60,485 nucleotides of DNA from Verrucomicrobiia bacterium (lineage in GTDB: Bacteria; Verrucomicrobiota; Verrucomicrobiia; Limisphaerales; CAIMTB01). Position numbers and translations under genes: made by a program. Below are positions 14,860-55,354 of the stretch, piece by piece (the first letter of the stretch is position 1; the number at the start of each line of letters is the position of its first letter). The notes under the pieces are model-generated. The model searched no databases and had not been told where the DNA came from. It saw only the letters and a program-made list of their open reading frames with translations. The DNA lies in assembly GCA_019634625.1 (NCBI GenBank), contig JAHCBA010000041.1, forward strand, positions 1 to 60,485, in the 5' to 3' direction.

Positions 14860-14923
14860 CCCCCATTCCCTACCGGCCCCCATCCCCCCGCTCAACGCCG
14901 AAAACGTCATTTCCCATCTCCCC

Positions 14924-15044
14924 ATGCACCCCGGAGTGGTGGGGCGAGGTGCGGGTTTCGCAAAGCGTCATCTCGGAGCGCCGGGTTCCACGAGGCCGCA
15001 GCGGAGTGGTGCAATGGACTGAGGACTCGCGGACCTCCCCACTC
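14924..15044 (+). repeat. Dispersed hairpin element, copy A (right end lost)
   Basis: This copy has the left terminus (ATGCACCCCGGAGTGGTGGG) and the internal arm around CCGGGTTCCACGAGGCC, then GAGGACTCGCGGA, and breaks off before the right terminus, where CCTGAAA repeats begin. Same orientation as copies B, D and E. See copy E for the full structure. Confidence 0.7.
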
Positions 15045-15048
15045 CGAG

Positions 15049-16779: not shown

Positions 16780-16924
16780 ATTCCGGGGAGGCGCGAACTC
16801 CGCCAAGCGTTGCCTCGGAGGGCCGGGTTCCACGAGGCCGCAACGGAGTGGCGCGTTGGGGTGAGGACTCGCAGAACTCGTCCCTCCGATTCGCCGCCTC
16901 CTCACCCGCAACTCCGGGATGCGC
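16780..16924 (+). repeat. Dispersed hairpin element, copy B (left end degraded)
   Basis: It contains the internal arm TCGGAGGGCCGGGTTCCACG, the centre ...GAGGACTCGCAGAACTCGTC and an intact right terminus CTCACCCGCAACTCCGGGATG. Only traces of the left terminus remain. It lies downstream of the prepilin-like gene in the same orientation as copy A upstream. Confidence 0.7.
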
Positions 16925-17242
16925 CCGCCGTGCGCCAGCCCTTCCGATTTTTGCCGTCAATCGGCGGGCTTTCCGATATACCCGGGGACCAGCGTCCGGC
17001 CGCCGCCGGTGCAAACCATGAGCGAGCCGTTCAACATTGCCGCGAATTTCATCGCCGATCTTCGGCCTTGGAACCCGCCCGCGGAGGAACCGTTCCCCGC
17101 TCATTCCCCCGGAAGGTCCCCATCGCGGCCACGGGTCTTGGAGCCGAACCCTCCCCAGATCCCCATTCATCCCCATCGCGAACCGGCTCGCGTGCGACCT
17201 TTCCTCCCATCGTCGAGCTTCGCTTCCTAGCCGTTCGAGCCC
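16925..17242. other. Intergenic stretch without a supported gene
   Basis: Between copy B and the Ig-protein gene. A 71-codon frame starts at 17018 but has no ribosome site and a Pro/Arg-rich, repeat-like composition. Nothing else was recognised; the promoter of the Ig-protein gene should lie here. Confidence 0.5.
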
Positions 17243-25934: not shown

Positions 25935-26188
25935 GGCGCTACGGCAGGCGTTCGGGGCTGGCATTCAACGTCTCTCCTTGCGGGGTGGTGCGCCTACGGG
26001 CGCATCTCAGTTCTTTGCAGCAGGTCTCGTAATCGCACTCGTGATCGTGATTGTCCTCCCCAGTGCCCACGTTGAATGGGAGATCCGAGCGGGACAGATC
26101 CCATCGGGCCAAGGCGACGCTCGAAGAACTGACCCGTTTAAGGGTCTCAGAGGTTCCGATCCCCGCCGCCACCGGGCCTTGAGCCACG

Positions 26189-26347
26189 GTGCATCCCCAA
26201 GTTGTCGGTACCGGGCCAGCGAACCGGAGGGACGAGCTCCGCGAGTCCTCAACCCAACGCTCCACACCGTTGCGGCCTCTTGGATCTCGGCCCTCCGAAG
26301 CGCCGCATGGCGGAGTTCGCACCTCTCCCCACAACTCCGGGATGCAC
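26189..26347 (-). repeat. Dispersed hairpin element, copy C (complete, inverted)
   Basis: A full-length 159-bp copy in the orientation opposite to A, B, D and E. Both termini are present (GTGCATCCCCAAGTTGTCGG at the left, CACAACTCCGGGATGCAC at the right), and the internal arm CTCGGCCCTCCGAAG is intact. It begins 43 bases beyond the stop codon of the giant adhesin-like gene. The 250 bases on its left side (25935-26188) hold no recognisable gene. Confidence 0.8.
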
Positions 26348-26390
26348 TGCTTGAGCCACCCATCCCAATCCCTTCCTGTAACGACGCGGG

Positions 26391-29300
26391 TCATGGCTCT
26401 TCAATGAGGCGGAAGAACCGGTGGGGCGACGCGTCGCCGTGGTCCGGCTCGGGGTGGAACGGCCATGCGCCAGGCGGGAACCCACCGTCGAGACGCCGCC
26501 ATTCGAGGAGATCGGTCGAGGTTTCGAGCCGGTAGGTCCGATGGGATTCGCCCGTCACGCGGAGAAGCCAGCGTCCGTCGGGAAGAGGTTCGACACCGTC
26601 GAGGCGCGGCGGTTCAGGAGGCCGCGATTCCAGCGTCGCGGTCTGGGGAAGGAGCGGGATCAGTTCGAACCCATCCGGACTGATCTCCCCTGCCGTCAGT
26701 TCCACCCGCCAAACAGCCCGGGCGGTGGCGCCGGGCAGCACGATGAACGGAATCTCGGCGACGAGGGCGTCGGCATCGGCATGCCAGGACCGGGCACTCA
26801 CGACGGCGAAGTCGAGAAGCCCGTCCGGATTCCCGGATTCCGGTTCGGAGTCGAGGCGCCAGCGACCGAGGGTTTGCAGGGCCGGAAATCCATGGGCGCG
26901 TGGCGTGAGGTTCGCCGGGATGCGCAGCGCGTCGGCGGGATAGCGTATCCGGAAGACAACGCCGGCGACGTCCGGGAGCAGCGGGGAGGCATGCAGGCGT
27001 GCCACGGTGGTTTCGCCGGGCGTGGCCCGCGGGGGATGAAGGCTGAGCCGCAGAGGTGGAGGTGGGGCGTGGGTGGGCATCGAGGCGAGCGCCGGACGCG
27101 GGGACGGAAGCGGGGACGGAAGCGGGAAGCCATCGAGGAGCGCGAAGCTCGCGATGGCCGGGTCCGCCGAGTCCAGGGTGCCGTTGCCGTCCAGATCATT
27201 GCCGGTGAGATCCCAACGACGGGGAATGTCGTGCAGGGTCACATACCGGAACATCATCGCGGCATCTCCGACATCGACGCGCTCGTTGGCATTGATGTCG
27301 CCGACGACGGAGCGCGGAAGGATGCGGACGTCCGTGCCGGCGAGGTCGGTGCCGAGTTCCAGGGAAGCCCCAAGGGCATCGGTGAGGGTGAGCAGTTCGA
27401 GGCTGACCGGAGTGGCCACGGGTTCCGGGACGGAGCGGCACCGGAAACGGAGGGTCACCGGATGGCCGGAGCCGTCCGGGAGGCGGCGTCCGTCCACCAT
27501 GAGTCGAAGCTGGCCCGGTTCATCGAGGACCGCCGAGACGGCGTCCGCGGCGGCGGAGTTGGGGAACAGAAGCTGGGGCGAACCGAGGTGATCCGGATCG
27601 TAAAGGATCCGCAGGCCGGCCTGCGAGATGACGTTCGGGATGTCCCATCGGAGGGGGACGTCGGTCCAGGTGCCTTCCTGACGGGGTTCGGGTGGATCCA
27701 GCCAGAGGCGGCGTACGGCGGTGACCTGGAGCACGGCGGCATCACTGAGGGAACTGCCGCCGTGACCGCGGATGGCGACGGTGTACCGGCCGGCATGGTG
27801 GGAGCGGAGCGGACCAAGCTCGAGGGTGGACTGGATGGCGCCGGGGACGGGGGATCCTTCGAACATCCATTGGTAGGTCAGACCTTCGCCCATGGCGGCC
27901 ACGGCAAGGCGCACCGTGTCGCCGGCGGGCGCGGACTGGCTCCGGGGCTGGGTCACGATGACCGGCGGGAGTCCGGATCGCAGTGAGAACGAGGTCAGGC
28001 TGGTGAGCGGGGCGGGCGGCGTCGTTCCGCCTCCGGCGATGACCGTGACGATCTCGGATTGGCCCATCCGGCCAGCCTGTGGATTGGCGTCTTCCCACGT
28101 GTGGCCCGCGGCCAGGTCCCAGGCGCGCAGCCGGACGTAGGCGATGCCGCCGGGCTCCACCCCGGGAACCAGGCGCATGGCGGACGGGGCGGCGTCCACG
28201 TACCCGGCGTCCGTGCCCGACAGGAACGGGGCGGCGGGACCCAGGGGCGTGAGAGCATCCGGAGTGGGGCCGGCGAGGAGGTCCGCACGAAACTGGGAAC
28301 CACTGACCGGCGTCGCACCATCGACATCGAGCACCGGGGCGTCGAGCAGGCCCACGATGCGGTTGGCGAGCAGAACGCTGCCCAACGGGACGGAGGCGGC
28401 ATTGAGGTTCACCTGCACGACGGCGGGCTGGCTGAGGGCGGATCCGGCGACATTGGAGACGCGGACCCGATACGTTCCGTTATCGGAGGGCAGACTGATC
28501 GGGACAACCAGCACCGGGCCGGTGTGACCCGGAAGAAGCTGGTCGTTGCGATACCATTCGAAGGTCAGGGGCGCCGTCCCGGAAGCTTCGACCGCCAATG
28601 CGAACGGATAGGCAATGAGGACTTCGACATCGGCCGGATGGGAGCGGATGACGGGTGGCTCGGGGATCTCCACGACGAAGGTGGCCACGACGGGTTCGCC
28701 GGCCGGGACGTCGTCCCGGAAGGGCGCGGCCCGGAGCACCGTGGAAGCGCCCAGGACCAGGGGACCCGTGTAGCGGGGTGAACTGGCCGTCGGGGCGAGG
28801 CCGTCGGTGGTGTAGCGGAGAATGAGTTCGGGGAGGTTGGCCAGCAGGCGCACCGTGACGGGAGCGGTGTAGGCGCCGCCCGGTGGAACGATCTGAACCG
28901 ACGCCGGATCCCGCGCCGCCGTGGCGCCCGGATGGGCGTAGAGAAAGGCAACCTGGGCGTCGGTGAGGGCGATGTCGTACACCTGCAGTTCGTCCAGATC
29001 GCCCTCGAAGGTGCCGACGATCGCTCCGGCATCGAAGCCGCCGATCACGGCACGGGCGGGAGACGGTACGGGCGTCTGGGCGAAGTCACCCGCCTCGGCG
29101 GGGCGACCGTCCACAAGGATCTCCATGCGCCCTCCCTGGTGCGACCGCAGCACCACGTGATGCCAGGCACCGTCGTGGACCGGCGTGATCCCGGTGATCT
29201 GCATGCCCCCGACCAGGGCGCTGGCACGTCCGGCCGTGTCCGGAATTCCCACCGGGTTGAGGAAGAGTCCGTAGCCGTTGGGCTGTCCCGGCCGGTGACG

Positions 29301-32300
29301 GGTGAGAATGGCCGCCAGTTCGGACGCCTGGCCGGGAGGAGTTCGAACCCAGGCGGCAACGGTGAAGCCCGGGCTGTCCAGCGGCAGGCTCCTCCCGAGA
29401 TCGACGTAGCCGTTGTCGGCACGCCGGAGCGACAGGGCCCCACCGGCCACACCGTCGGGAATGAACGAGGCCCCTCGCGGCGAGAGCACGCCCGGATGGC
29501 GTCCGGTGGTGTCCTCGACCCCGGGACCAGCCAGCTCGTCGAACCGCCAGTGGGCCAGCAGGGAACTGACGGGAGCGGCGGCATCCCGGTCGATCTCGAA
29601 CGATGCGGTCTCGATGGCGGTGACAGGTTGGCCGTCAAGGAATCCCCGCACGCGCAGGGTGCCCGACGTCGTCAGGACCAACGGCTGCGTGTAGATCGAA
29701 GACTCGATCCGGGGTTCCGTGCCGTCGGTCGTGTAATGGATCCGGACGTTGTCCAGGACGATCGCCACCCGCACCGTCACCGCGTCCCGGAAGATTCCTC
29801 CGCGGGGCACCAGATGGAGTCGGGACGTGGCGATGGCGTCGAGGGACCGGTCCGGGTGGGCGAAGAGGGCGTCCACCTCCGCATCGTTCAGCGCGAAGTC
29901 GTACACCTGGACCTCGTCGAGGTACCCGGTGAAGGTGCCGGTGGGGACTCCGGGATCGTGCCCTCCGAGGAGGGTCAGGGCCCCGGTGGGTTCGCTGGCC
30001 CCGGCAGGTGCGACGGCGCGAGGCGGGGTGCCATCCACGTAGAGGCGGACCGTTCCGCCGGTTTCCCGCACGACCACCACATGGTGCCAGCCGCCGTCAT
30101 TGACCGGAACGCGCGTCGCCACAACCGAGCCCGGGCCGGCGCTGGCGGCCAGGGTGTGGCCAAGGTAGTTGAGGGCCAGGAAGTGCCCGTTGTGGGATCC
30201 AGGTCGGTGTCGGGTGAGAAGGCCGGCGAACGGGGTGACATCTCCCGGCGGCAACCGGAACCAGAGCGAGATGGAATGCGGCGAGTCGCCGGGCGGCAGG
30301 AATTCGCCCAGGCGGACATGTCCGTTGGCGCTCCGGCTCAGGAAGAGACTGCCGCCCGCCACCCCTTCCGGAACGAACGTGGCCCCGGATGCGGAGAGGA
30401 CACCCGGCCAACGGCCGGTTTCGTCCGGGGCGGAAAGTCCGCCGAGCGAATCGAGGCGCCAGTGGGCGAGTAGCGTTCCACGATGGGTGGGGTTGGGTTG
30501 GAGGAGGTATTCCTCGACGACGACGGGCGAGATCGGGATCCCGCCCACGAAGGCGCGGGCGCGGAGGGTCACTCGGGCTGTGAAGGTGAGCGGACCGGCG
30601 GCCAGCAGGGATTCCACCGTGGGTTCGGTCCCGTCGGTGGTGTAGCGGACTTCGGCCTCCGGCCGGGGGGAGACGCACTGCACCTGAATCCCGCCGGTGA
30701 ACGTGGTGGACGAAGGCACGACGATCAGCGGGGACAGAAGATCGCTTGCCAGGGGAAGTCCGGGATGGGCGAAGAGCACTGCCACCTCGGCAGACGTCAC
30801 CGCCCTGCCATAGACCTGAACATCATCAATCGCCCCTCGGAACGTCCCCTTGGGCACACCCGGGTCGAGTCCGCCGAGCACGACCTGGGCGGGCGACGTC
30901 AGGACGGGCGGGGCGGGCGCCATGGAACCGACGCTCACGGCATCGATGAACAGCCGCGCCTCCCCCTCCGGATCGACGCTCAGGACGACATGGTGCCATG
31001 TCCCGTCGTTGATGCGGGGGCCCCCGGTGATCACCCGACCCGACCCGACATGGGCCGACACCGCGTGGTGGGCGCCGTCCATTGCAAGGAAGTAGCCATT
31101 CCCGGTGCCCGGCCGGTGTTTCGAAAAGAGGACCGCTCCAGAAGTCAGGGTGTCCGGCATGACCCGGACCCACAGCGCCACGGAGAACGGCGTGTCGAGC
31201 ATCGGCAGAACCTCTCCGAATGCGACGTGCCCGTTCAGGGAACTCTCGAACTGCAGCGCCCCGCCCGCGATTCCCCCCGGAACAAGGGTCACGCCCTGGG
31301 TGGACGCCCTGCCGGAATGCCGGGCCAGGTCGTCCAGAACGACCCCGTTGGGGAGGGCGTCCAGCCGGTAATGCGCGATCAACCCGCCGGACGACGGCGG
31401 CGCGGCGATCGAGGTGTATTCGGCCAGACCGACCGGGGACACCGCATGCCCGTCGAGAAACGCGCGGGCACGCAGCGTGGTGGTGGAGGTGAGGGGCACC
31501 GGAGCGTGATGGAGGGGGCTCGTCGGCGTGGGGTCCGATCCATCCACCGTGAAATGGATCGATGCGCCCGGCACCTCCGTGGTCAATCCCACGGCGACCA
31601 TGCCTTCGAAGGCCCCGGACGGCGGGTCGAACACGGGAGGATTCCAACTGGCGACCCGCAGTTCCGCAGCCTCGCTGAAGATCCCGTCCACCGGATTGGC
31701 CACCGCCACGTAATAGGTCCCGGCATCGGCAAAGGTGACCTGGTTCAGCACGAGGGTCGCGCCGTCGGGCCCGCGCTCGGATACCGGCACTCCTTCCCGG
31801 AACCACTCGTAGAGGATCGGCTCGCTTCGCGACTCCGCGACGACCCGGAATGTGGCGGTGGATCCAACGGGGATGGTCACATCCTGCGGTTCCTCGAGGA
31901 TGCGCGGGATCTCCGACAGCGGGAGCCTCGGCAGGACTTCCACGAGCCCGTTGCCGCTGGACACCACGCCGGCGGCATTGACGACGTCCACCCGGTAGTT
32001 CCCTGCGTGTTCCGGACGGGCCTCGGCGATGGAGATGACCGTACCCTCGACCTCCGGCATCGGCGCATCCTCAAACCACCAGACGTAATGCAGGGGTTCG
32101 GGACCCACGGCCTCGACGTGGAGGTACATGGGATGGCCGATCTGGAAGATGGCGTGCCTCGGGAAGTACCCGATCACCGGCAGACCCGGCGTGGGCTCGG
32201 CCCTGGGAACGTCGAGGGTCCGTCCTGGATGGGTTCGCAGGAATTCGATCTGGTCCCCCGAAAGCGCAAAGTCGTAGTACTGGACGTCATCCATCCGGCC

Positions 32301-35300
32301 CGTGAACAGGCCCACGGGCGGGTCGGTGTCCAGTCCCCCAAGCACCATCGCGGCGGGCGTCGAGAGGACGGGCCCGGCCATGCCGGACGCCACGGGCTCG
32401 GGGCCGTCGATATGGATTCGGACCCGGCCGGCGGCATCATGGGTCACGACAAGGTGATGCCATGCGCCATCGTTGACGGGGGTGTGGGCACCGAGAACCA
32501 GGGCACCACTGAAGGCCTCGACCGAGTGCCCGTTGGCATGGAGACGGAGGAAGTGGCCACGGTGGGAGCCCGGGCGGTGCTTGGAAACGATCATCAGATT
32601 CTGCGCGGTCGTTCCCGGTTCGAGCCGAACCCAGACGGAAAGGGTGTAGGGCTGATCCGCCATCCCCAGGACATCCCCCACCATGACCCGCCCGCCCCGT
32701 CCCTGATCCAGATCGAGCGCATGGCCGTCCACACCGTCAGCCGTCCAGCCGGCGCCGGAACCGACCAGGCGCCCGGGATAGGTTCCGGCGTCGTTATGGG
32801 CCAGCAGCCCGGAGCCCTCGTCGAAACGCCAGTGGGCCAGCAGCCGCCCCGTTGGGATCGGCTCCGGGACGACTTCGAAGGCGGCGGAACCCACCGCTGT
32901 CACCGGCTGGCCGGCACGAAACGCGCGCACCCGGAGTTCGGCCGTCGCAGTGAGTTCGATCGGCCCGGTGTAGCGCGGTGAGTCGAGGACGGGGTCCGTG
33001 CCGTCCAGCGTGAAATGGAGGTCCGCATCGGACCAGGGGACGATCAGATGGATCGGTCCGGTCCGGTCGGTGAAAATGCCTCCCCTCGGGAGGATCAACA
33101 CCTCTTCGGGGGCGGCCTCGTGGAGGGTTGAACCCGGACGATCCCGCAGACGGTCGATCTGACCGGGGGCCAGCGCGAAGTCGTACACCTGGACGTCATC
33201 GAGATCCCCAAGCAGGCCACCGCGGGCACCCTGGGTCGTGTCGTTGTATCCGCCGAGGAGGAACCCGGCGGTCGAGGGGACAATCCGCCCGACGCGGACG
33301 CGGGCGCGAAACAACCCGCCATCGACATAGAGCCGCACCGTCTCGGTGGCCAGATCGTAGGTCATGGCCACATGATGCCATGCGCCATCCTTGGGGAAGC
33401 CCTCCGCATGAACCATCGCCACATCCCCGCTGTAGGCGGTCATCTGACCCCGGTCAGGCTGGACACTGAGGAAGTATCCGTTGCCATACCCGCCGTTGTG
33501 CCTCGAAAACAGAGCCGCATCGGACGCCAGTCCATCGGCCGGCAACCGTGTCCAGAGGGCGATGGTCCACGACTGGTCGAGAAGAGGCAGGATGTCCCCG
33601 AAGCGGACGTAACCCGCCCCGTTTCGACCCAGCGACAGGGCGGCACCGGACACCCCATCCGGAATGTATCCGGCGCCTGCGTCGGAAAGGAGCCCGTGAT
33701 GGTCCCCCGCACTATCGGGCACGATGCCGTCCGGCCCCCCGTCGAGACGCCAATGGGCCAGCAGACGGCCCGTGCCTTCCGGAATGGGATCGATCACGAA
33801 GGACGCCGACACCTCCGGGGAGACGGGTTCGCCTCCCAGAAAGGCGCGGGCCCGGATCTCCGCCGACTGCCTCAGCAGGACCGGTCCGTCGTAATGCGGT
33901 GCCGCCTCGGTGGGGGCCGAGCCATCCAGGGTGTAGTGGATGCGCGAACGACGGTCCCAGGCGTCCATCGTGAACACCACTTCCTCTGCATGACGCCCCC
34001 CCTCCGGTTGGATGCGCAGGGGTCCCGCAGAGGTCTCGGGAAGCGGGGCCTCCGGATGGTCGAAAAGGTGTTGGGCCTGGAGATCGCTCAGCGCGAAGTC
34101 ATAGAGGCGCATCTCATCCAGGGCGCCGTCGAAATCGCCGACGGGCCGGTGAACCACATGGGCTCCGACAAGGCTCACGGCGTCGGAGGGCGGGACCGGG
34201 ACCCCTTCCGTCCGACCCACCCAGCGTCCCCCGTCCACAAGGACGCGGAGTTCCCCGCCGGGTTCGTAGGCCATGACGACATGATGCCATGCGCCGTCGC
34301 GCAGCCAGGGCTCAACCACCGCCGCGGCTGCCGTTCCGTTCTGGACCGTGACGGCGTAGCCACCGGCGTTGAGAACGATCTGCGGTCCGTCCCGCCAGAG
34401 AAAATGAGAGGTCCCCCCGCTCGCTCCGTCCGCCCGAATCCACAAGGAAACCGAATGGGTGCGGTCCGGCGACGGGAGGTGGCCGGGCAGTCGGACATGG
34501 CCGCTGGCGGCTGCCCGCAAGGCAAGCGCCCCCCCGACAAGACCGTCGTCGATCCAGCGGACCCCCGCTTCAGAGAGGGTCCCGTCGTACCGCCCCGTCT
34601 CGTCCCGGACCCTCCCTCCCGCCCCATCGTCGAAGGTCCACCGGGCAAGCAGCGGACCGGTGGGGACCGGAACGGGTGTGACCTTGAACCACGCCGCCAC
34701 GACATCCGAAACCGGCGTGTTCCCCGTGAAGGCCCGCGCCCGCAGCGGGGTGGGCTGGGTCAGCACCAGGCTGCCCTGGTAGAGCGTGGAATCCGCGTCC
34801 GGATCGCTGCCGTCCGTGGTGTAGCGGATCTGCGCGCCTGGTTGCGACGCGGACAGCACCACGCTCAGCCCGCCGATCGCCGAGGCGCCGGGGGGTACGA
34901 TTTGCAGGGGGACCTCCCATTCGGGAAACAACGGGACACCCGGCTGGGCGCGAAGAACCTCGAGCTGGGACTCGGTGAGGGCGACATCGTACACCTGCAA
35001 GTCATCAAGATGGCAGGACACCCCGCCGCCCATCACCGCAGGGGCCGGCGTGGCACCGACGGGTTCGGACGCCGCGACGACCCGGGGCGCCCCGCCGTCC
35101 ACGTACACCTTGAGCCCGGCCGTGGCGGAATGGGTCATCGCCACGAAATGCCAGTGGCCATCCCCGAGGGACGGCACCTTGGCGACCGCCTGACGGCTTC
35201 CCACCGTTGCCGTCACCGCCTGGAGTCCATCCGCCCAGCCGAGCGAAAAGGCGTACCCGCCCGGCTCGCCGGGCGCCGCCTTTGAAATCAGGTGGCCTTG

Positions 35301-36653
35301 CACCACGGACGAATGCGGCGGCAGCAGGACCCACCCGGCGATGGTGAAATCCGTGCCGAGCAAGGAAAGCCCCTGTCCCACATCCACACGGCCCCGAACA
35401 TTGCCATCGAGGCCAAGGGCGCGTCCGGAGACGCCTCCCTCCGATCGCCAGACGCCCGGCGGGCGCAGCGTTCCGTGATGGACGCCGGTGCCGTCGATCA
35501 CCAACTCGCCGTCCGGCTCATCGAAGGACCACCGAGCCAGAAGCCTGCCGGCCGGGGGCGGTGGGATCGCAAAGGTGAACGCCGCCGCCACCACCTCCGA
35601 TGCAGGCACCCCGTTGGTGAAGGCGCGGGCCTGGAGCACGGTGTCGGCCCGCAACCGCCACGGTTCGGTGTACCGCGGCGACTCCGCGGTCGGCGTCGCA
35701 CCATCCATCGTGTAATGCAGATCCACATGGGGAAGCGGAGTCAGGAGCGACACCGTGACCGGTTCCTCGAAGCGACCCCCCGCCGGGACGATCTGGAGCG
35801 GCGGCGGCAGCGGAATGAAGAGCGATTCCCCCGGATGACGGAACAGCTCGTTCACCTCCTCCTGGGTGAGGTCGAAGTCGTAGATCTGGACCTCATCGAT
35901 CCAGCCGGTGAACGCGCCGACCGGCTGTCCCTGGGCGCCCGTGCCGCCCAGGACGAGATGGGCGTTGGCGTGGCTCACCGGGCCAGCGGAGGCGGTGGCC
36001 ACCGGCATGCCGCCGTTCACGTACAGCCGGACCAGGCCGCCGGCCGAACGGGTCATGACGATGTGGTGCCAGGCATTGTGATCGAGCGCCGGTCCCCCCA
36101 CCACCAGCCCGCCGGGCCCAGCATAACCAACGACCGACCCCATCACATGAGGGGTTCCAAACGCAGTGAGATGAAGGAAGAGAAAGTAGCCCTCGTGCGG
36201 CGGACTCTCGTACCGGCCGATCAGCGCCGAGTTGGCCTCGCCACCCCCGGGAGGCTGGTGCACCCACAGCGAGATCGTGAACGGCGTGTCGGTCAGCAGC
36301 AGCACGTCCCCCGCTGACACGTAACCGTTCCCGCTCCGGCCCAGGACAAGCGCCCCGCCCGAGACGCCTCCATGCGTGAACGCGGCTCCAGTCGGCGACA
36401 GCGTGGCGGGATGGCGCCCGGTTTCGTCCGCGGCCACGCGGGTTCCGGGCGGTTCATCGAAACGCCAGTGAGCGAGCAGATGACGCAGCCTGGGCGGCGG
36501 TTCGATTCCGGGCTGGCCGTGGGCCGTCGTGGAGCCGTAGGGAAGGGCCAGGGACAGAGCCATCAGGCCGGTTGCGACACAAACGAGACGACATGCGCGG
36601 GAGAAATCGCCGGAGGCGACGCTCCACGCCCGTCCGGGTGGGTGGGAGGACAT
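26391..36653 (-). CDS. 3,420-residue LamG/chitobiase-like repeat protein with dockerin-like segment
   Basis: A giant exported protein with a long basic signal sequence (about 45 residues, ending TTAHG). The body is eight units of about 280 residues, each a LamG jelly roll (LLAHWRFDE..., HHVVMTxD, DDVQVYDFAL) followed by a chitobiase/beta-hexosaminidase C-terminal-like domain (LHYTLDGTDPT...SPRYTGP...LRARAF). Two Ig domains interrupt after the fifth LamG and two more follow the eighth unit. Then a cohesin-like beta domain and a dockerin-like calcium pair (GDINANERVDVGD, NDLDGNGTLDSAD), another beta domain, and a tail ending HRFFRLIEEP. There is no catalytic domain, so adhesion, polysaccharide binding or scaffolding is likely. 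Start at 36653: the 101 upstream codons are repeat DNA. Hairpin-element copies C and D lie just outside both ends. Confidence 0.88.
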   Translation of the reverse strand: MSSHPPGRAWSVASGDFSRACRLVCVATGLMALSLALPYGSTTAHGQPGIEPPPRLRHLLAHWRFDEPPGTRVAADETGRHPATLSPTGAAFTHGGVSGGALVLGRSGNGYVSAGDVLLLTDTPFTISLWVHQPPGGGEANSALIGRYESPPHEGYFLFLHLTAFGTPHVMGSVVGYAGPGGLVVGGPALDHNAWHHIVMTRSAGGLVRLYVNGGMPVATASAGPVSHANAHLVLGGTGAQGQPVGAFTGWIDEVQIYDFDLTQEEVNELFRHPGESLFIPLPPPLQIVPAGGRFEEPVTVSLLTPLPHVDLHYTMDGATPTAESPRYTEPWRLRADTVLQARAFTNGVPASEVVAAAFTFAIPPPPAGRLLARWSFDEPDGELVIDGTGVHHGTLRPPGVWRSEGGVSGRALGLDGNVRGRVDVGQGLSLLGTDFTIAGWVLLPPHSSVVQGHLISKAAPGEPGGYAFSLGWADGLQAVTATVGSRQAVAKVPSLGDGHWHFVAMTHSATAGLKVYVDGGAPRVVAASEPVGATPAPAVMGGGVSCHLDDLQVYDVALTESQLEVLRAQPGVPLFPEWEVPLQIVPPGASAIGGLSVVLSASQPGAQIRYTTDGSDPDADSTLYQGSLVLTQPTPLRARAFTGNTPVSDVVAAWFKVTPVPVPTGPLLARWTFDDGAGGRVRDETGRYDGTLSEAGVRWIDDGLVGGALALRAAASGHVRLPGHLPSPDRTHSVSLWIRADGASGGTSHFLWRDGPQIVLNAGGYAVTVQNGTAAAAVVEPWLRDGAWHHVVMAYEPGGELRVLVDGGRWVGRTEGVPVPPSDAVSLVGAHVVHRPVGDFDGALDEMRLYDFALSDLQAQHLFDHPEAPLPETSAGPLRIQPEGGRHAEEVVFTMDAWDRRSRIHYTLDGSAPTEAAPHYDGPVLLRQSAEIRARAFLGGEPVSPEVSASFVIDPIPEGTGRLLAHWRLDGGPDGIVPDSAGDHHGLLSDAGAGYIPDGVSGAALSLGRNGAGYVRFGDILPLLDQSWTIALWTRLPADGLASDAALFSRHNGGYGNGYFLSVQPDRGQMTAYSGDVAMVHAEGFPKDGAWHHVAMTYDLATETVRLYVDGGLFRARVRVGRIVPSTAGFLLGGYNDTTQGARGGLLGDLDDVQVYDFALAPGQIDRLRDRPGSTLHEAAPEEVLILPRGGIFTDRTGPIHLIVPWSDADLHFTLDGTDPVLDSPRYTGPIELTATAELRVRAFRAGQPVTAVGSAAFEVVPEPIPTGRLLAHWRFDEGSGLLAHNDAGTYPGRLVGSGAGWTADGVDGHALDLDQGRGGRVMVGDVLGMADQPYTLSVWVRLEPGTTAQNLMIVSKHRPGSHRGHFLRLHANGHSVEAFSGALVLGAHTPVNDGAWHHLVVTHDAAGRVRIHIDGPEPVASGMAGPVLSTPAAMVLGGLDTDPPVGLFTGRMDDVQYYDFALSGDQIEFLRTHPGRTLDVPRAEPTPGLPVIGYFPRHAIFQIGHPMYLHVEAVGPEPLHYVWWFEDAPMPEVEGTVISIAEARPEHAGNYRVDVVNAAGVVSSGNGLVEVLPRLPLSEIPRILEEPQDVTIPVGSTATFRVVAESRSEPILYEWFREGVPVSERGPDGATLVLNQVTFADAGTYYVAVANPVDGIFSEAAELRVASWNPPVFDPPSGAFEGMVAVGLTTEVPGASIHFTVDGSDPTPTSPLHHAPVPLTSTTTLRARAFLDGHAVSPVGLAEYTSIAAPPSSGGLIAHYRLDALPNGVVLDDLARHSGRASTQGVTLVPGGIAGGALQFESSLNGHVAFGEVLPMLDTPFSVALWVRVMPDTLTSGAVLFSKHRPGTGNGYFLAMDGAHHAVSAHVGSGRVITGGPRINDGTWHHVVLSVDPEGEARLFIDAVSVGSMAPAPPVLTSPAQVVLGGLDPGVPKGTFRGAIDDVQVYGRAVTSAEVAVLFAHPGLPLASDLLSPLIVVPSSTTFTGGIQVQCVSPRPEAEVRYTTDGTEPTVESLLAAGPLTFTARVTLRARAFVGGIPISPVVVEEYLLQPNPTHRGTLLAHWRLDSLGGLSAPDETGRWPGVLSASGATFVPEGVAGGSLFLSRSANGHVRLGEFLPPGDSPHSISLWFRLPPGDVTPFAGLLTRHRPGSHNGHFLALNYLGHTLAASAGPGSVVATRVPVNDGGWHHVVVVRETGGTVRLYVDGTPPRAVAPAGASEPTGALTLLGGHDPGVPTGTFTGYLDEVQVYDFALNDAEVDALFAHPDRSLDAIATSRLHLVPRGGIFRDAVTVRVAIVLDNVRIHYTTDGTEPRIESSIYTQPLVLTTSGTLRVRGFLDGQPVTAIETASFEIDRDAAAPVSSLLAHWRFDELAGPGVEDTTGRHPGVLSPRGASFIPDGVAGGALSLRRADNGYVDLGRSLPLDSPGFTVAAWVRTPPGQASELAAILTRHRPGQPNGYGLFLNPVGIPDTAGRASALVGGMQITGITPVHDGAWHHVVLRSHQGGRMEILVDGRPAEAGDFAQTPVPSPARAVIGGFDAGAIVGTFEGDLDELQVYDIALTDAQVAFLYAHPGATAARDPASVQIVPPGGAYTAPVTVRLLANLPELILRYTTDGLAPTASSPRYTGPLVLGASTVLRAAPFRDDVPAGEPVVATFVVEIPEPPVIRSHPADVEVLIAYPFALAVEASGTAPLTFEWYRNDQLLPGHTGPVLVVPISLPSDNGTYRVRVSNVAGSALSQPAVVQVNLNAASVPLGSVLLANRIVGLLDAPVLDVDGATPVSGSQFRADLLAGPTPDALTPLGPAAPFLSGTDAGYVDAAPSAMRLVPGVEPGGIAYVRLRAWDLAAGHTWEDANPQAGRMGQSEIVTVIAGGGTTPPAPLTSLTSFSLRSGLPPVIVTQPRSQSAPAGDTVRLAVAAMGEGLTYQWMFEGSPVPGAIQSTLELGPLRSHHAGRYTVAIRGHGGSSLSDAAVLQVTAVRRLWLDPPEPRQEGTWTDVPLRWDIPNVISQAGLRILYDPDHLGSPQLLFPNSAAADAVSAVLDEPGQLRLMVDGRRLPDGSGHPVTLRFRCRSVPEPVATPVSLELLTLTDALGASLELGTDLAGTDVRILPRSVVGDINANERVDVGDAAMMFRYVTLHDIPRRWDLTGNDLDGNGTLDSADPAIASFALLDGFPLPSPLPSPRPALASMPTHAPPPPLRLSLHPPRATPGETTVARLHASPLLPDVAGVVFRIRYPADALRIPANLTPRAHGFPALQTLGRWRLDSEPESGNPDGLLDFAVVSARSWHADADALVAEIPFIVLPGATARAVWRVELTAGEISPDGFELIPLLPQTATLESRPPEPPRLDGVEPLPDGRWLLRVTGESHRTYRLETSTDLLEWRRLDGGFPPGAWPFHPEPDHGDASPHRFFRLIEEP

Positions 36654-36749: not shown

Positions 36750-36906
36750 GCGCCTCCCAGAGTGGAGGGGAGAGGTGCAGACTTCGCCAAGCGTGGCTTC
36801 GGAGGGCCGGGTTCCACGAGGCCGCAACGGTGTGGCGCGTTGGGACGAGGACTCGCGGAGCTCGTCCCTCCGATGCACTGCCGCCTCACCCACAACTCCG
36901 CACGGC
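36750..36906 (+). repeat. Dispersed hairpin element, copy D
   Basis: It retains both internal arms (TTCGGAGGGCCGGGTTCCAC and GCGGAGCTCGTCCCTCCGAT) and a recognisable right terminus CTCACCCACAACTCCG; the outermost bases at both ends are changed. It lies about 100 bases upstream of the giant gene, in the orientation opposite to copy C at the other end of that gene. Confidence 0.75.
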
Positions 36907-36923: not shown

Positions 36924-37017
36924 CACCCCGGGGTCAGATCTGTGAATTTGACACATGGAACGGCAGCACCTGAGAGGGGGGACCGAATGTCAAATTCAGA
37001 GATCTGACCCCGGGGTG
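36924..37017. repeat. 30-bp inverted repeat of GGGGTCAGATCT...TTTGACA type
   Basis: CACCCCGGGGTCAGATCT (left arm start, 36924) continues to TTTGACA at 36953 and is mirrored at 36988-37017 with a single mismatch; the spacer is 34 bases. The words GGGGTCAGATCT and AATTTGACA are familiar from REP-like repeats linked to Y1/RAYT transposases in many bacteria; that link is from memory. No transposase is nearby, so it would be a non-autonomous copy. Confidence 0.75.
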
Positions 37018-37035
37018 AAAGCCTTGAAACGCCCG

Positions 37036-37061
37036 AAACGGCGTGCATATGCACGCCGTTT
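37036..37061 (-). terminator. 26-bp perfect palindrome after flgL
   Basis: AAACGGCGTGCAT followed directly by its exact inverse. It lies 62 bases beyond the flgL stop, at the end of the flagellar cluster, and shares the core GTGCATATGCAC with the palindrome at 45108-45149. There is no classical T tract; a terminator or mRNA-end hairpin is the best guess from its position. Confidence 0.5.
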
Positions 37062-37122
37062 GCGTCCATTTCCGTCCATTTGCAGCGCCTCCTTCCCCCA
37101 TCCCGCCACCCCGGGAACAGCC

Positions 37123-38058
37123 TCAGCGGATGTAGTCCATCAGGGACCGGCCGAGGATGGTGCCGCCGCTCTGGAGGGCGGCCTGGTAGGCGGTCTGGAC
37201 CTCGTTGAGGCGGACGAGGGTCTGGGCGAGGTCGGCGTCGGCCTCCTTGGAGATGAGTCCTTCAAGCGACTGGCTCCGCTGCTTGAGCAGGCTCTGCGAG
37301 GTTTCCAGCCGGGCCTGGACCGACGCGTTGGTGCCGAGGTGGTACACCACGCTGTCGGAGTCGGCCTCGAGGGCCGGGCGATCGACGGAGGCGATGGCGG
37401 CGACGTCCCCGGCAAGGAGATTGTCGCGAAGCGAGATCAGGTGGTTGAACAGGTCGGCGCCGGTGCGGGAATCGGTGATCAGGCCGCGCGGCCCGGTGCC
37501 GGTGGTGTTGGCGCCAAGGGTCTGGGCGGTGAGGTTCACCCCCGAGGCGATCTCGTTCTCCGCCAGCGTCGTGTTGCCGTGGTAGGTCACGCCCACGACC
37601 TTGCCTTCAGCATCGGTGACCTTGGAGAAGGGGGCGACATCGGCGCGGGTGCCGCCGAAAAGGGAGTCGCCGCGGTTGCGGGAATTGACCAGTTCGAGGG
37701 CCTGCCCGATGAGCTGGTCCACCTCGGCGGCGTAGGCCTTGAGTTCGGTGGGAGACTTGAGGCCATCGGCCAGCACGGCGATCTCGCTGGCGCGATCGAC
37801 CACCTTGCCGACGGCGCGGATGGGAGCGAAGGAGGCCGAGGCCAGCTCCTGGTTGCGGGCGACGTTGCGCAGGTACTGTCCGACCGAACTGGCCTCGCCC
37901 TGCATGTCCAGCACCCGGCGCATGGCGACGGGGTCGTCGTCCGGGGTGGTGATCCGCTGGCCGGTGGCGGCCTGGTTTTGCAGGCGGTACTGGCGGGTCG
38001 CCAGCCGGTTCAACTGGTCGATCAGCGAATTGGGGAAGGTGTTGGCGGTGACGCGCAT
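37123..38058 (-). CDS. flgL: Flagellar hook-filament junction protein FlgL (HAP3)
   Basis: A 311-residue flagellin-like protein. The N-terminus MRVTANTFPNSLIDQLNRL and the TGQRITTPDDDPVAMRRVLDMQ segment match FlgL, as does the helical C-terminus (VRLNEVQTAYQAALQSGGTILGRSLMDYIR). It links the FlgK ring to the filament outside the cell and is exported by the flagellar type III system. It is the last gene of the cluster, 54 bases after flgK. The length is normal for the family. No flagellin gene follows, so the filament gene lies elsewhere. Confidence 0.92.
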   Translation of the reverse strand: MRVTANTFPNSLIDQLNRLATRQYRLQNQAATGQRITTPDDDPVAMRRVLDMQGEASSVGQYLRNVARNQELASASFAPIRAVGKVVDRASEIAVLADGLKSPTELKAYAAEVDQLIGQALELVNSRNRGDSLFGGTRADVAPFSKVTDAEGKVVGVTYHGNTTLAENEIASGVNLTAQTLGANTTGTGPRGLITDSRTGADLFNHLISLRDNLLAGDVAAIASVDRPALEADSDSVVYHLGTNASVQARLETSQSLLKQRSQSLEGLISKEADADLAQTLVRLNEVQTAYQAALQSGGTILGRSLMDYIR

Positions 38059-44937: not shown

Positions 44938-45107
44938 GACTCAAGGGACCCAAGGGACCCAAGGGACCCAAGGGACTCAAGGGACCCAAGGGACTCAAGG
45001 GACCCAAGGGACTCAAGGGACTCAAGGGACTCAAGGGACTCAAAGGACTCAAGGGACTCAAAGGACTCAAGGGACTCAAAGGACTCAAAGGACCCAAGGG
45101 ACCCAAG
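44938..45107. repeat. 9-bp tandem repeat GGGACYCAA, about 19 units
   Basis: About 19 units of GGGACCCAA, GGGACTCAA or AGGACTCAA run without interruption up to the palindrome at 45108. It lies between flgF and the motB-side genes, about 220 bases upstream of flgF. The frames through it give artificial Gly-Pro-Lys-like or Arg-Asp-Ser-like peptides and are not taken as genes. Confidence 0.9.
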
Positions 45108-45149
45108 AACGACGCAAACTTCGTGCATATGCACGAAGTTTGCGTCGTT
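45108..45149 (-). terminator. 42-bp perfect palindrome after the motB-side genes
   Basis: Twenty-one base pairs match exactly around the centre of GTGCATATGCAC. It starts 13 bases beyond the stop codon of the small CGCG-protein gene on the minus strand. It shares its 12-base core with the palindrome after flgL. Without a T tract it is not a textbook intrinsic terminator, but both copies lie just after the last gene of a flagellar block. Confidence 0.55.
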
Positions 45150-45162
45150 TTCTGAACCGATC

Positions 45163-45450
45163 CTAATAGACCAGTTCGAGGTCCAGCACCTGCCCGCAGC
45201 CGCACACCACCCGCACCCCGGTCACCCGGTCTCCATCCCGGCGCAGCGTCACCTGGGGGGGCGTGACGGGAGCCGGTGTCGAGGCTGGAGCGGCCGTTTC
45301 CGCGGCAGCGGCAGCCGGTGGGTGGCAATGCAGCGGGGCGAAGGCCGGCGCAGGGGAATCGCCCGGCGGCGGCAGCACCCGGACGCGGAATCCGCCCGGA
45401 TCCGCGGCCCGATGGGCGGGCACAGCAAGGGGAACGAAATCAGCCGGCAT
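45163..45450 (-). CDS. Small protein with C-terminal CGCG motif, flagellar cluster
   Basis: A 95-residue protein that I do not recognise. The first 60 residues are Pro/Ala-rich with a few His and look disordered. The last 30 form a compact pattern: VTLRRDGDRVTGVRVVCGCGQVLDLELVY. The Cys-Gly-Cys-Gly in a beta hairpin-like setting could bind metal or form a small fold. The start at 45450 overlaps the motB end by 11 bases in another frame, so it is probably translated from the same message. Given its place at the end of the motA-motB block, a role in motility is plausible but unproven. Confidence 0.65.
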   Translation of the reverse strand: MPADFVPLAVPAHRAADPGGFRVRVLPPPGDSPAPAFAPLHCHPPAAAAAETAAPASTPAPVTPPQVTLRRDGDRVTGVRVVCGCGQVLDLELVY

Positions 45451-46195
45451 GGGACAGTTGGGTGGCCGAGAATCTGGGGTCGGGGATCTTGAGCATGATG
45501 GTGACACGACGGTTCACTTCCGCCTCCGGCGGGTGGTTGGGCATGGGTGCGGTATCGGCGAAACCCGCCACCTTGCGCATCTGTCCGGCGCTCACGCCAT
45601 GCACGAGAAGCTTGCGCCGGGCGATGTTGGCACGGTCCGCGGACATCTCCCAGTCGCCGTAGCTGTCGCTCAGGGGCGGATGTCCCTGCTCGGTATGGCC
45701 CTCGACCTCGATGGTGAAGGATCTGTACCGGGCCAGTTCCCACGCGAGCGTGGACAGCACCCAGTCGCCGTAGGGGGTGAGGTTGATGGACTGGGGCTCG
45801 AAAATGGGCCGCTGCGAGCGGTCAAAGATGGTGATGCGCAGTCCTTCGGCGGTCAGTTCCAGCTCGACCGACCGCTCGGACGGGTCGTCATGCTCGTGCC
45901 GGAGCGTCTTCAACAGGTCCTCGTTGAGCCGACGCAGCACCGACAACTCGACCATGGAGGCGGCATCGAAATTGCCGCGGTCCTCGATCTTCATGGGGTC
46001 CGACTGGCTGGGGATGATCCCCATGCTCTCCTTGGTCAGGGCGCCGAAGGGATTCTTGAAGGCCCTCTCGACGGCCTCCTTGATCTTCTCGTCCTGGGCG
46101 GTGAGCCACAGGACCATGAAGAGCGCCATCATGGCGGTGACGAAGTCCGCGTAGGCCACCTTCCAGGCGCCGCCGTGATGCCCTTTGTGTTTCAT
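45440..46195 (-). CDS. motB: Flagellar stator protein MotB
   Basis: A 251-residue stator subunit. The single membrane helix is at about 11-31 (WKVAYADFVTAMMALFMVLWL), with the ion-binding Asp17 in place. The plug region follows. The C-terminal OmpA-like peptidoglycan-binding domain has YRSFTIEVEGHTEQGH, the ADRANIARRKLLVHGV helix and NRRVTIML. It pairs with MotA to convert ion flow into rotation. It lies 18 bases after motA. Choice of proton or sodium cannot be told with certainty; the sequence around Asp17 fits a proton-type MotB. Confidence 0.93.
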   Translation of the reverse strand: MKHKGHHGGAWKVAYADFVTAMMALFMVLWLTAQDEKIKEAVERAFKNPFGALTKESMGIIPSQSDPMKIEDRGNFDAASMVELSVLRRLNEDLLKTLRHEHDDPSERSVELELTAEGLRITIFDRSQRPIFEPQSINLTPYGDWVLSTLAWELARYRSFTIEVEGHTEQGHPPLSDSYGDWEMSADRANIARRKLLVHGVSAGQMRKVAGFADTAPMPNHPPEAEVNRRVTIMLKIPDPRFSATQLSHAG

Positions 46196-54980: not shown

Positions 54981-55130
54981 CGACACGCCCTTCCAGAGCA
55001 GCGCCCATGCCGGACGTTCCGCAGGGCAAAAACGGCCCGAATCGACGGTTCCGATCCCCCATTGCGGCAGGAGTTGCCCCCATCCCCCGCCCTCGAGGCA
55101 ATTTCAACCGGGCTGGCAGGGTGTCGATCC

Positions 55131-55289
55131 GTGCATCCCGGAGTGGTTGGGCGAGGTGCAAGCTCCGCGAAGCGTGGCCTCGGAGGGCCGAGTTCCACGA
55201 GGCCGCAAGGGTGCGGAGCGTTGGGTTGAGGACTCGCAGAGCTCGTCCCTCCGATTCGCTGCCTCCTCACCCACAACTCCGGGATGCAC
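55131..55289 (+). repeat. Dispersed hairpin element, copy E (complete, inside flagellar operon)
   Basis: A 159-bp element with imperfect 25-bp terminal inverted repeats: GTGCATCCCGGAGTGGTTGG at the left and CAACTCCGGGATGCAC at the right. A second pair of inverted arms lies inside (TCGGAGGGCCGAGTTCCACG, and CAGAGCTCGTCCCTCCGAT on the other side). The whole element can therefore fold into one long stem with a branched top. It lies 66 bases beyond the fliN stop and 150 bases before the fliO start. No frame in it is taken as a gene. Confidence 0.85.
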
Positions 55290-55354
55290 CGTCCCCCATC
55301 CCCCATTCCCGATTCCCCTCGCCGCAGGCCGGCGCTCGGTTCAGGCGGGGTCGA

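Follow-up and report, generated by a model that had tools for sequence, protein, structure and literature searches.

A REP-like and apparently genome-specific family of long palindromes in a member of the Verrucomicrobiia

REPs, together with their REPIN and BIME dimers, are described, in the part of the literature drawn on here, as short, high-copy, intergenic palindromes that lie near the 3' ends of genes. In the relevant sections of PMC3733652, the defining mark of the tagged REP superfamilies is an end, GTAG or CGTC, that stays unpaired; the same sections present REPs as occurring both singly and in tandem clusters, with some families restricted to a species, and place the repeats of REP-rich genomes predominantly in tandem and convergent gaps. 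Also named there are untagged palindromic repeats of Mycobacterium, Deinococcus, Bordetella, Brucella, and cyanobacteria, REP-like families in which the terminal motifs are not conserved. A mutational process that acts on such structures, quasipalindrome template switching, is described in part of PMC8794818 as perfecting imperfect arms in one step. The palindrome family analyzed here resembles REPs in being short, abundant, and intergenic, in its proximity to gene 3' ends, in its occurrence as single units and tandem clusters, and in its narrow distribution, and it resembles the untagged families in lacking conserved terminal motifs; judging from its sequence, we read it as a REP-like, untagged, dispersed repeat.

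Two units of this family are located in the window, that is, the whole 60,485-nucleotide stretch of DNA that was analyzed (contig C41), which is part of a Verrucomicrobiia genome of 6.74 Mb in 88 contigs. The units and the features next to them are the following:

45106..45151, no strand: palindromic repeat unit of 46 bp, perfect at 45108-45149, with the core at 45123-45134; scores 65.1 bits against the family model, whose rows include this copy
37026..37071, no strand: palindromic repeat unit of 46 bp, perfect at 37036-37061, with the core at 37043-37054; 58.2 bits to the family model, of which this copy likewise was a row
37123..38058, minus strand: FlgL-like gene (Flagellin_N); 61 bases separate its stop from the 26-bp palindrome
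45440..46195, minus strand: MotB-like gene, whose end is closer to the 42-bp palindrome than that of any other supported gene
44938..45107, no strand: tandem array of the 9-bp repeat GACTCAAGG, 18.9 copies, its last base directly preceding the 42-bp palindrome
36924..37017, no strand: inverted repeat with arms of 30 bp (36924-36953 and 36988-37017), distinct from the 26-bp palindrome, which lies 18 bases away

Both palindromes, of 42 bp (45108-45149) and 26 bp (37036-37061), are loop-less, perfect, and centered on the 12-base core GTGCATATGCAC, as the preliminary description had it; in the outer arms of the 37026-37071 unit, full pairing is lost. When one mismatch is allowed, GTGCATATGCAC has two matches in the window, both of them the palindromes (mean in shuffled sequence, 0.01). 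The claim that the pairing exceeds chance was borne out as well: at the composition of the window, the expected number of loop-less perfect palindromes is about 0.004 for arms of at least 13 bases and about 1.6e-7 for arms of at least 21 bases. The distances to gene ends that had been reported fared unevenly. That of the 26-bp palindrome, given as 62 bases, comes to 61. The "13 bases" given for the 42-bp one depends on an open reading frame (ORF), 45163-45507, that has no Pfam match and was not called by the gene finder; between the edge of the unit and the stop of the MotB-like gene, the distance is 288-289 bases.

Other repeats occur in the same stretch. The inverted repeat at 36924-37017 contains GGGGTCAG, a fit to the GGGGWSAS motif that part of PMC3733652 gives for TIR-associated tyrosine transposases, and is possibly a non-autonomous copy, given the short distance of 34 bp between its arms. 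Another repeat, interspersed and about 165 bp long, has five copies in the window at 36752-36900, 55129-55291, 26187-26351, 16785-16925, and 14921-15047 and, among the matches listed, many further copies at other loci of the genome. The minus strand carries a very long ORF (26391-36563, about 3390 codons), the first 1000 residues of which include Laminin_G_3 and chitobiase-C-terminal-like domains.

Across the genome, the exact core GTGCATATGCAC is found 77 times, and the reversed pattern that served as a control is found 0 times. The first reading was made with 70 exact copies, and further copies and core variants were added afterwards: a half-site matrix detects at least 111 units in 62 clusters within 385,527 fetched bases (reversed control, 0). 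This count is a lower bound: the fetched loci cover all but four of the 77 exact cores and leave out two or more matches to the model (C33 and C84), and an exact core that a contig end truncates in locus L062 was excluded; the family model yields at least 150 rows in this genome, which do not amount to a copy census. The unit is 46 bp long and consists of two inverted 23-bp half-sites without a spacer, AAATSGMCSNAAACTTC-GTGCAT / ATGCAC-GAAGTTTNSGKCSATTT. Among the 111 units, the core is GTGCATATGCAC in 72 and GTGCATGTGCAC or its complement in 19, other types being rarer. In the fetched loci, loop-less perfect palindromes whose arms have at least 11 bases number 25: 24 have the TGCATATGCA center, and the remaining one is the same unit with its core changed symmetrically to GTGCCTAGGCAC. 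Base conservation is absent beyond 23 bp from the center (the commonest base reaches at most 39 of 69); within the arms, the near-fixed positions, counted from the center, are 7, 12-13, 16, and 21-22 (in the right half, G7, T12, T13, G16, and T21). In 172 between-locus pairs of copies that share a spacer, identity is 91% in the core, 85% at fixed arm positions, 68% at variable arm positions, and 71% in the spacer, an estimate of constraint that is inflated because the copies were found by motif score.

The units occur both singly and in arrays of 84-160-bp repeats, present at several loci, with one palindrome per repeat; in the regular arrays, every repeat keeps its unit and none is skipped. 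At L063:2939-3150, four units lie within about 210 bp as two pairs with centers 45 bp apart, so close that neighbors abut. The units at the contig ends of L029 and L054, and of L061 and L062, have flanks that are 95-96% identical, among the matches listed. Such contig-end units are probably arrays that broke the assembly, and the true copy number may therefore be higher. The location of several copies at contig ends could also be taken to indicate inverted chimeras formed during assembly or amplification, an explanation that we consider highly improbable: random fold-back chimeras are not expected to have a conserved motif, a graded decay at about 60 loci, and a common core, and the reversed control is again 0.

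Outside this genome, the family all but disappears from the sequences searched. The exact core is absent from four congeners and occurs once each in two of the 35 other genomes of the set that includes them; a slightly looser core pattern, run against 320 genomes of the order, has 74 matches in the genome under study and at most one in each of the other 319 (34 have one). Arms plus core gave 0 matches in the genome_contigs and viral_contigs collections, from both of which the genome itself may be missing, and a covariance model of the family had no match in 10 relatives, with the best 150 candidates scored per genome. We also considered whether relatives carry the same arms around another core, and rejected this idea, the half-site matches examined there being without the core or the partner arm; the idea that the congeners have palindromes of their own, built on another core, was rejected likewise, with 0 loop-less perfect palindromes with arms of at least 11 bases in a small sample of about 242 kb. 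Among named records, those most similar in FlhA are Verrucomicrobiota MAGs (71 and 68%). A literature search of limited coverage found no published description of the family, GTGCATATGCAC appearing in print in unrelated contexts. As far as these sequence comparisons reach, the palindrome family is specific to this genome.

The placement of the units was analyzed with gene calls from a codon-score script, which were checked by eye and against Pfam for ten ORFs of the window, and with each cluster represented by its first unit, as in the pairing and covariation analyses below. By these calls, 61 of the 62 clusters are extragenic. The two window copies are surrounded by FlgL-, FlgK-, FlgN-, FlgI-, FlgE/F/G-, and Mot-like genes and had been described as marking the ends of flagellar transcription units. 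Elsewhere, the flanking proteins belong to many families, any one Pfam family accounting for at most 3 of 108 (of 109 flanking genes, one short ORF of L063 was omitted); since flanking genes are unrelated at other loci, the flagellar setting is coincidental to the window, and a signal of a flagellar regulon was rejected. Thus, the original observation is correct and its flagellar context is misleading. Of the 46 clusters with both flanks available, 32 are in tandem, 8 in divergent, and 6 in convergent gaps, compared with 89, 27, and 18, respectively, among background gaps of at least 46 bp in the fetched loci, cluster gaps included; the proportions are close to the background, so there is no preference for gene orientation. 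The notion that copies throughout the genome are placed relative to gene ends nevertheless holds for the tandem gaps: in the 32 of these, the unit is at a median of 52.5 bp from the upstream stop codon and 197 bp from the downstream start, compared with 140 bp from the stop under uniform placement (0 of 5000 trials as low as 52.5). This closeness to the upstream stop fits both the avoidance of promoters and a role at 3' ends.

The latter possibility, a bidirectional terminator or an RNA 3'-end signal that works without a T tract, draws on this placement and on the very stable hairpin that the RNA of 45098-45159 would form (-37.5 kcal/mol, z -7.4). We regard it as quite improbable: 8 of the 46 clusters use divergent gaps, and copies in arrays are poor folds (z -1.5 in L126 and -2.4 in L017). 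The lack of T tracts noted for the window copies extends to the family: of 41 oriented copies, 0 have at least four T among the 8 bases that follow (T content there, 13%). A terminator scan calls neither site of the window, and a canonical intrinsic terminator was rejected.

The pairing of the arms is itself informative. Arms of at least 16 bases are found in 15 of the 62 cluster representatives; when the halves are re-paired at random, 2000 times, the average is 0.94 and the highest value 5. Variable arm positions are complementary in many single copies and different between loci: across the representatives, 101 cells are changed on both sides, against 64.7 after shuffling (0 of 500 shuffles as high), although two of the five covariation measures, pairs with any change on both sides and further pair types, do not exceed the shuffles. 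The excess of pairing is strongest at positions 8, 10, 14, and 15, and there is none at 18 and 19. Palindromy extends past the motif by 8 bp in L024 and by 4 bp in L016. Locus L044 has a right flank homologous to those of L017, L028, and L059, and a right arm that differs from theirs and pairs with its own left arm at every base. In the paralogous segments of L050 and L058, which differ by one unit plus spacer, the single L050 unit starts as the first unit of L058 and ends as the second one, and the inner part of its left arm is complementary to that of the right. Because whole arms change symmetrically in sister copies and the L024 palindrome runs beyond the motif, the pattern alone points to rewriting of the arms by template-switch correction of quasipalindromes.

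Selection for a hairpin would likewise produce covariation of the arms. Selection on RNA predicts G-U pairs on the transcript strand, and none are preferred in the 41 oriented copies (35 G-U versus 42 A-C); a structured RNA family was rejected on this count and for want of an Rfam match in the window. In the spacer-sharing arrays, moreover, the variable arm positions diverge like the spacers, and the two array copies folded are poor folds; a process in which one arm is copied from the other fits the arm pairing better than RNA selection does.

A protein-binding site, another of the readings in the preliminary description, is still plausible from the sequence because the center and the fixed arm positions are conserved. 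As a rival account, this reading holds that the family is a dispersed site in double-stranded DNA under selection, a 46-bp dyad bound by a lineage-specific nucleoid, segregation, or regulatory protein, with the palindromy mainly mirroring the symmetry of the protein. The conservation of the center and of spaced arm positions on both halves, even in unpaired arms, agrees with it, and so does the occurrence of A/T-rich steps at about 0, 12, and 21 bp from the center, a roughly helical spacing that might be expected of bent or wrapped DNA. A symmetric protein, however, needs no match within a copy at the variable positions, and these covary; furthermore, the L024 palindrome continues 8 bp past the motif, all four congeners lack the units, and the flanking genes are unrelated. 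As a full account, we consider binding by such a protein possible but unlikely. A chromosome-organizing site akin to parS or matS would have a dedicated binding protein and a biased chromosomal position; the sequence at hand is a draft in 88 contigs.

Evidence on the spread of the units comes from comparison of half-sites between unrelated loci, for which 50 of the 62 loci were used and the 12 that share flanks were dropped. Between unrelated loci, 6 identical 22-base half-sites were counted (the null has a mean of 0.54 and, in 200, a maximum of 5); with a match of at least 21 of the 22 bases, the count is 33 (null mean 8.4, maximum 24). Among the matches listed, one array type with homologous spacers is found on several contigs, in both orientations. 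The sharing of identical half-sites and of homologous arrays between unrelated loci indicates copying within the genome, which is well supported at the sequence level. At the one locus for which the orthologous region of congeners was tried, the unit is absent there and the intergenic DNA is too diverged for a clean empty site.

The Y1_Tnp transposases, the RAYT candidates of this genome, are more numerous here (30 matches) than in three congeners (5, 8, and 5). These proteins (L253-L272, for example, L257:2459-3439) are mostly 308-326 amino acids long and have upstream, by eye, motifs like GTCAGNCNTTTTNAANTTGAC; the upstream sequences are unlike the palindrome family. No family unit is present in the 20 of the 30 Y1_Tnp loci that were fetched, where, by a rough density estimate, about 0.9 cluster is expected, so that this absence shows only that there is no systematic link to Y1_Tnp. 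No linked transposase or binding protein emerged from these 20 loci or, as a recurrent family, from the 108 flanking proteins.

Taken together, these observations make it fairly probable, in our assessment, that both palindromes of the window are REP-like, genome-specific repeats with a protein-recognized center, propagated as copied units, with arms shaped by template switching. The 12-bp center and the fixed arm positions would be constrained, most simply through a sequence-specific protein, and the family would spread by copying of single units and of whole arrays. The remaining arm positions would drift, and template switching during replication, at the hairpin, would intermittently rewrite one arm from the other, resulting in perfect palindromes with arms peculiar to each locus. 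Copies would settle between genes, mostly right after stop codons, where they presumably do the least harm. A more specific proposal, which we regard as rather unlikely, is that a dedicated nuclease or transposase recognizes the center on an extruded cruciform or hairpin, and that cutting at the core followed by repair both spreads the unit and rewrites the arm.

Compared with the known repeats, the family fits the broad sense of REP in its copy number, palindromy, and extragenic location. The unpaired GTAG or CGTC end tag is absent, CGTC being present only within the paired arm, on both sides; with the tag missing and no linkage at the Y1_Tnp loci fetched, a tagged REP with a RAYT was rejected, and the family differs in both respects from GTAG REPs and the REPtron. 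Relative to the GTAG and CGTC REPs as characterized in the sections of PMC3733652 cited above, this family is conserved at the center rather than at the end, its stems are loop-less, perfect, and up to 31 bp long, against 8-9 bp in CGTC REPs, and its use of divergent gaps is close to expectation, unlike in REP-rich genomes. The conserved center and covarying arms set it apart from the untagged families as those are described in the same sections. With quasipalindrome correction, in the relevant parts of PMC8794818, PMC7202029, and PMC8604942, the family has in common perfect arms produced in one event and multi-base compensatory changes; that process is presented, in part of PMC8794818, as a mutation mechanism at individual sites, whereas here an equal outcome is seen across a dispersed family. 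We accordingly file these palindromes under a kind already known, the REP-like repeats, and the untagged, center-conserved, long-stemmed variant as new.

For the interpretation of single loci, long hairpins at gene ends call for caution before they are read as terminators or operon signals. The conserved center marks a site with which the recognizing protein could be sought biochemically; if cut-and-repair at the core operates, it would give each locus its own self-complementary arms, and the family would represent a new class of dispersed palindromes. With more than 100 copies, from perfect to decayed half-sites, the family offers a natural test of quasipalindrome correction, in which sister copies with common flanks can help tell mutational from selected perfection, and it makes a good natural archive of the origin and repair of DNA palindromes.
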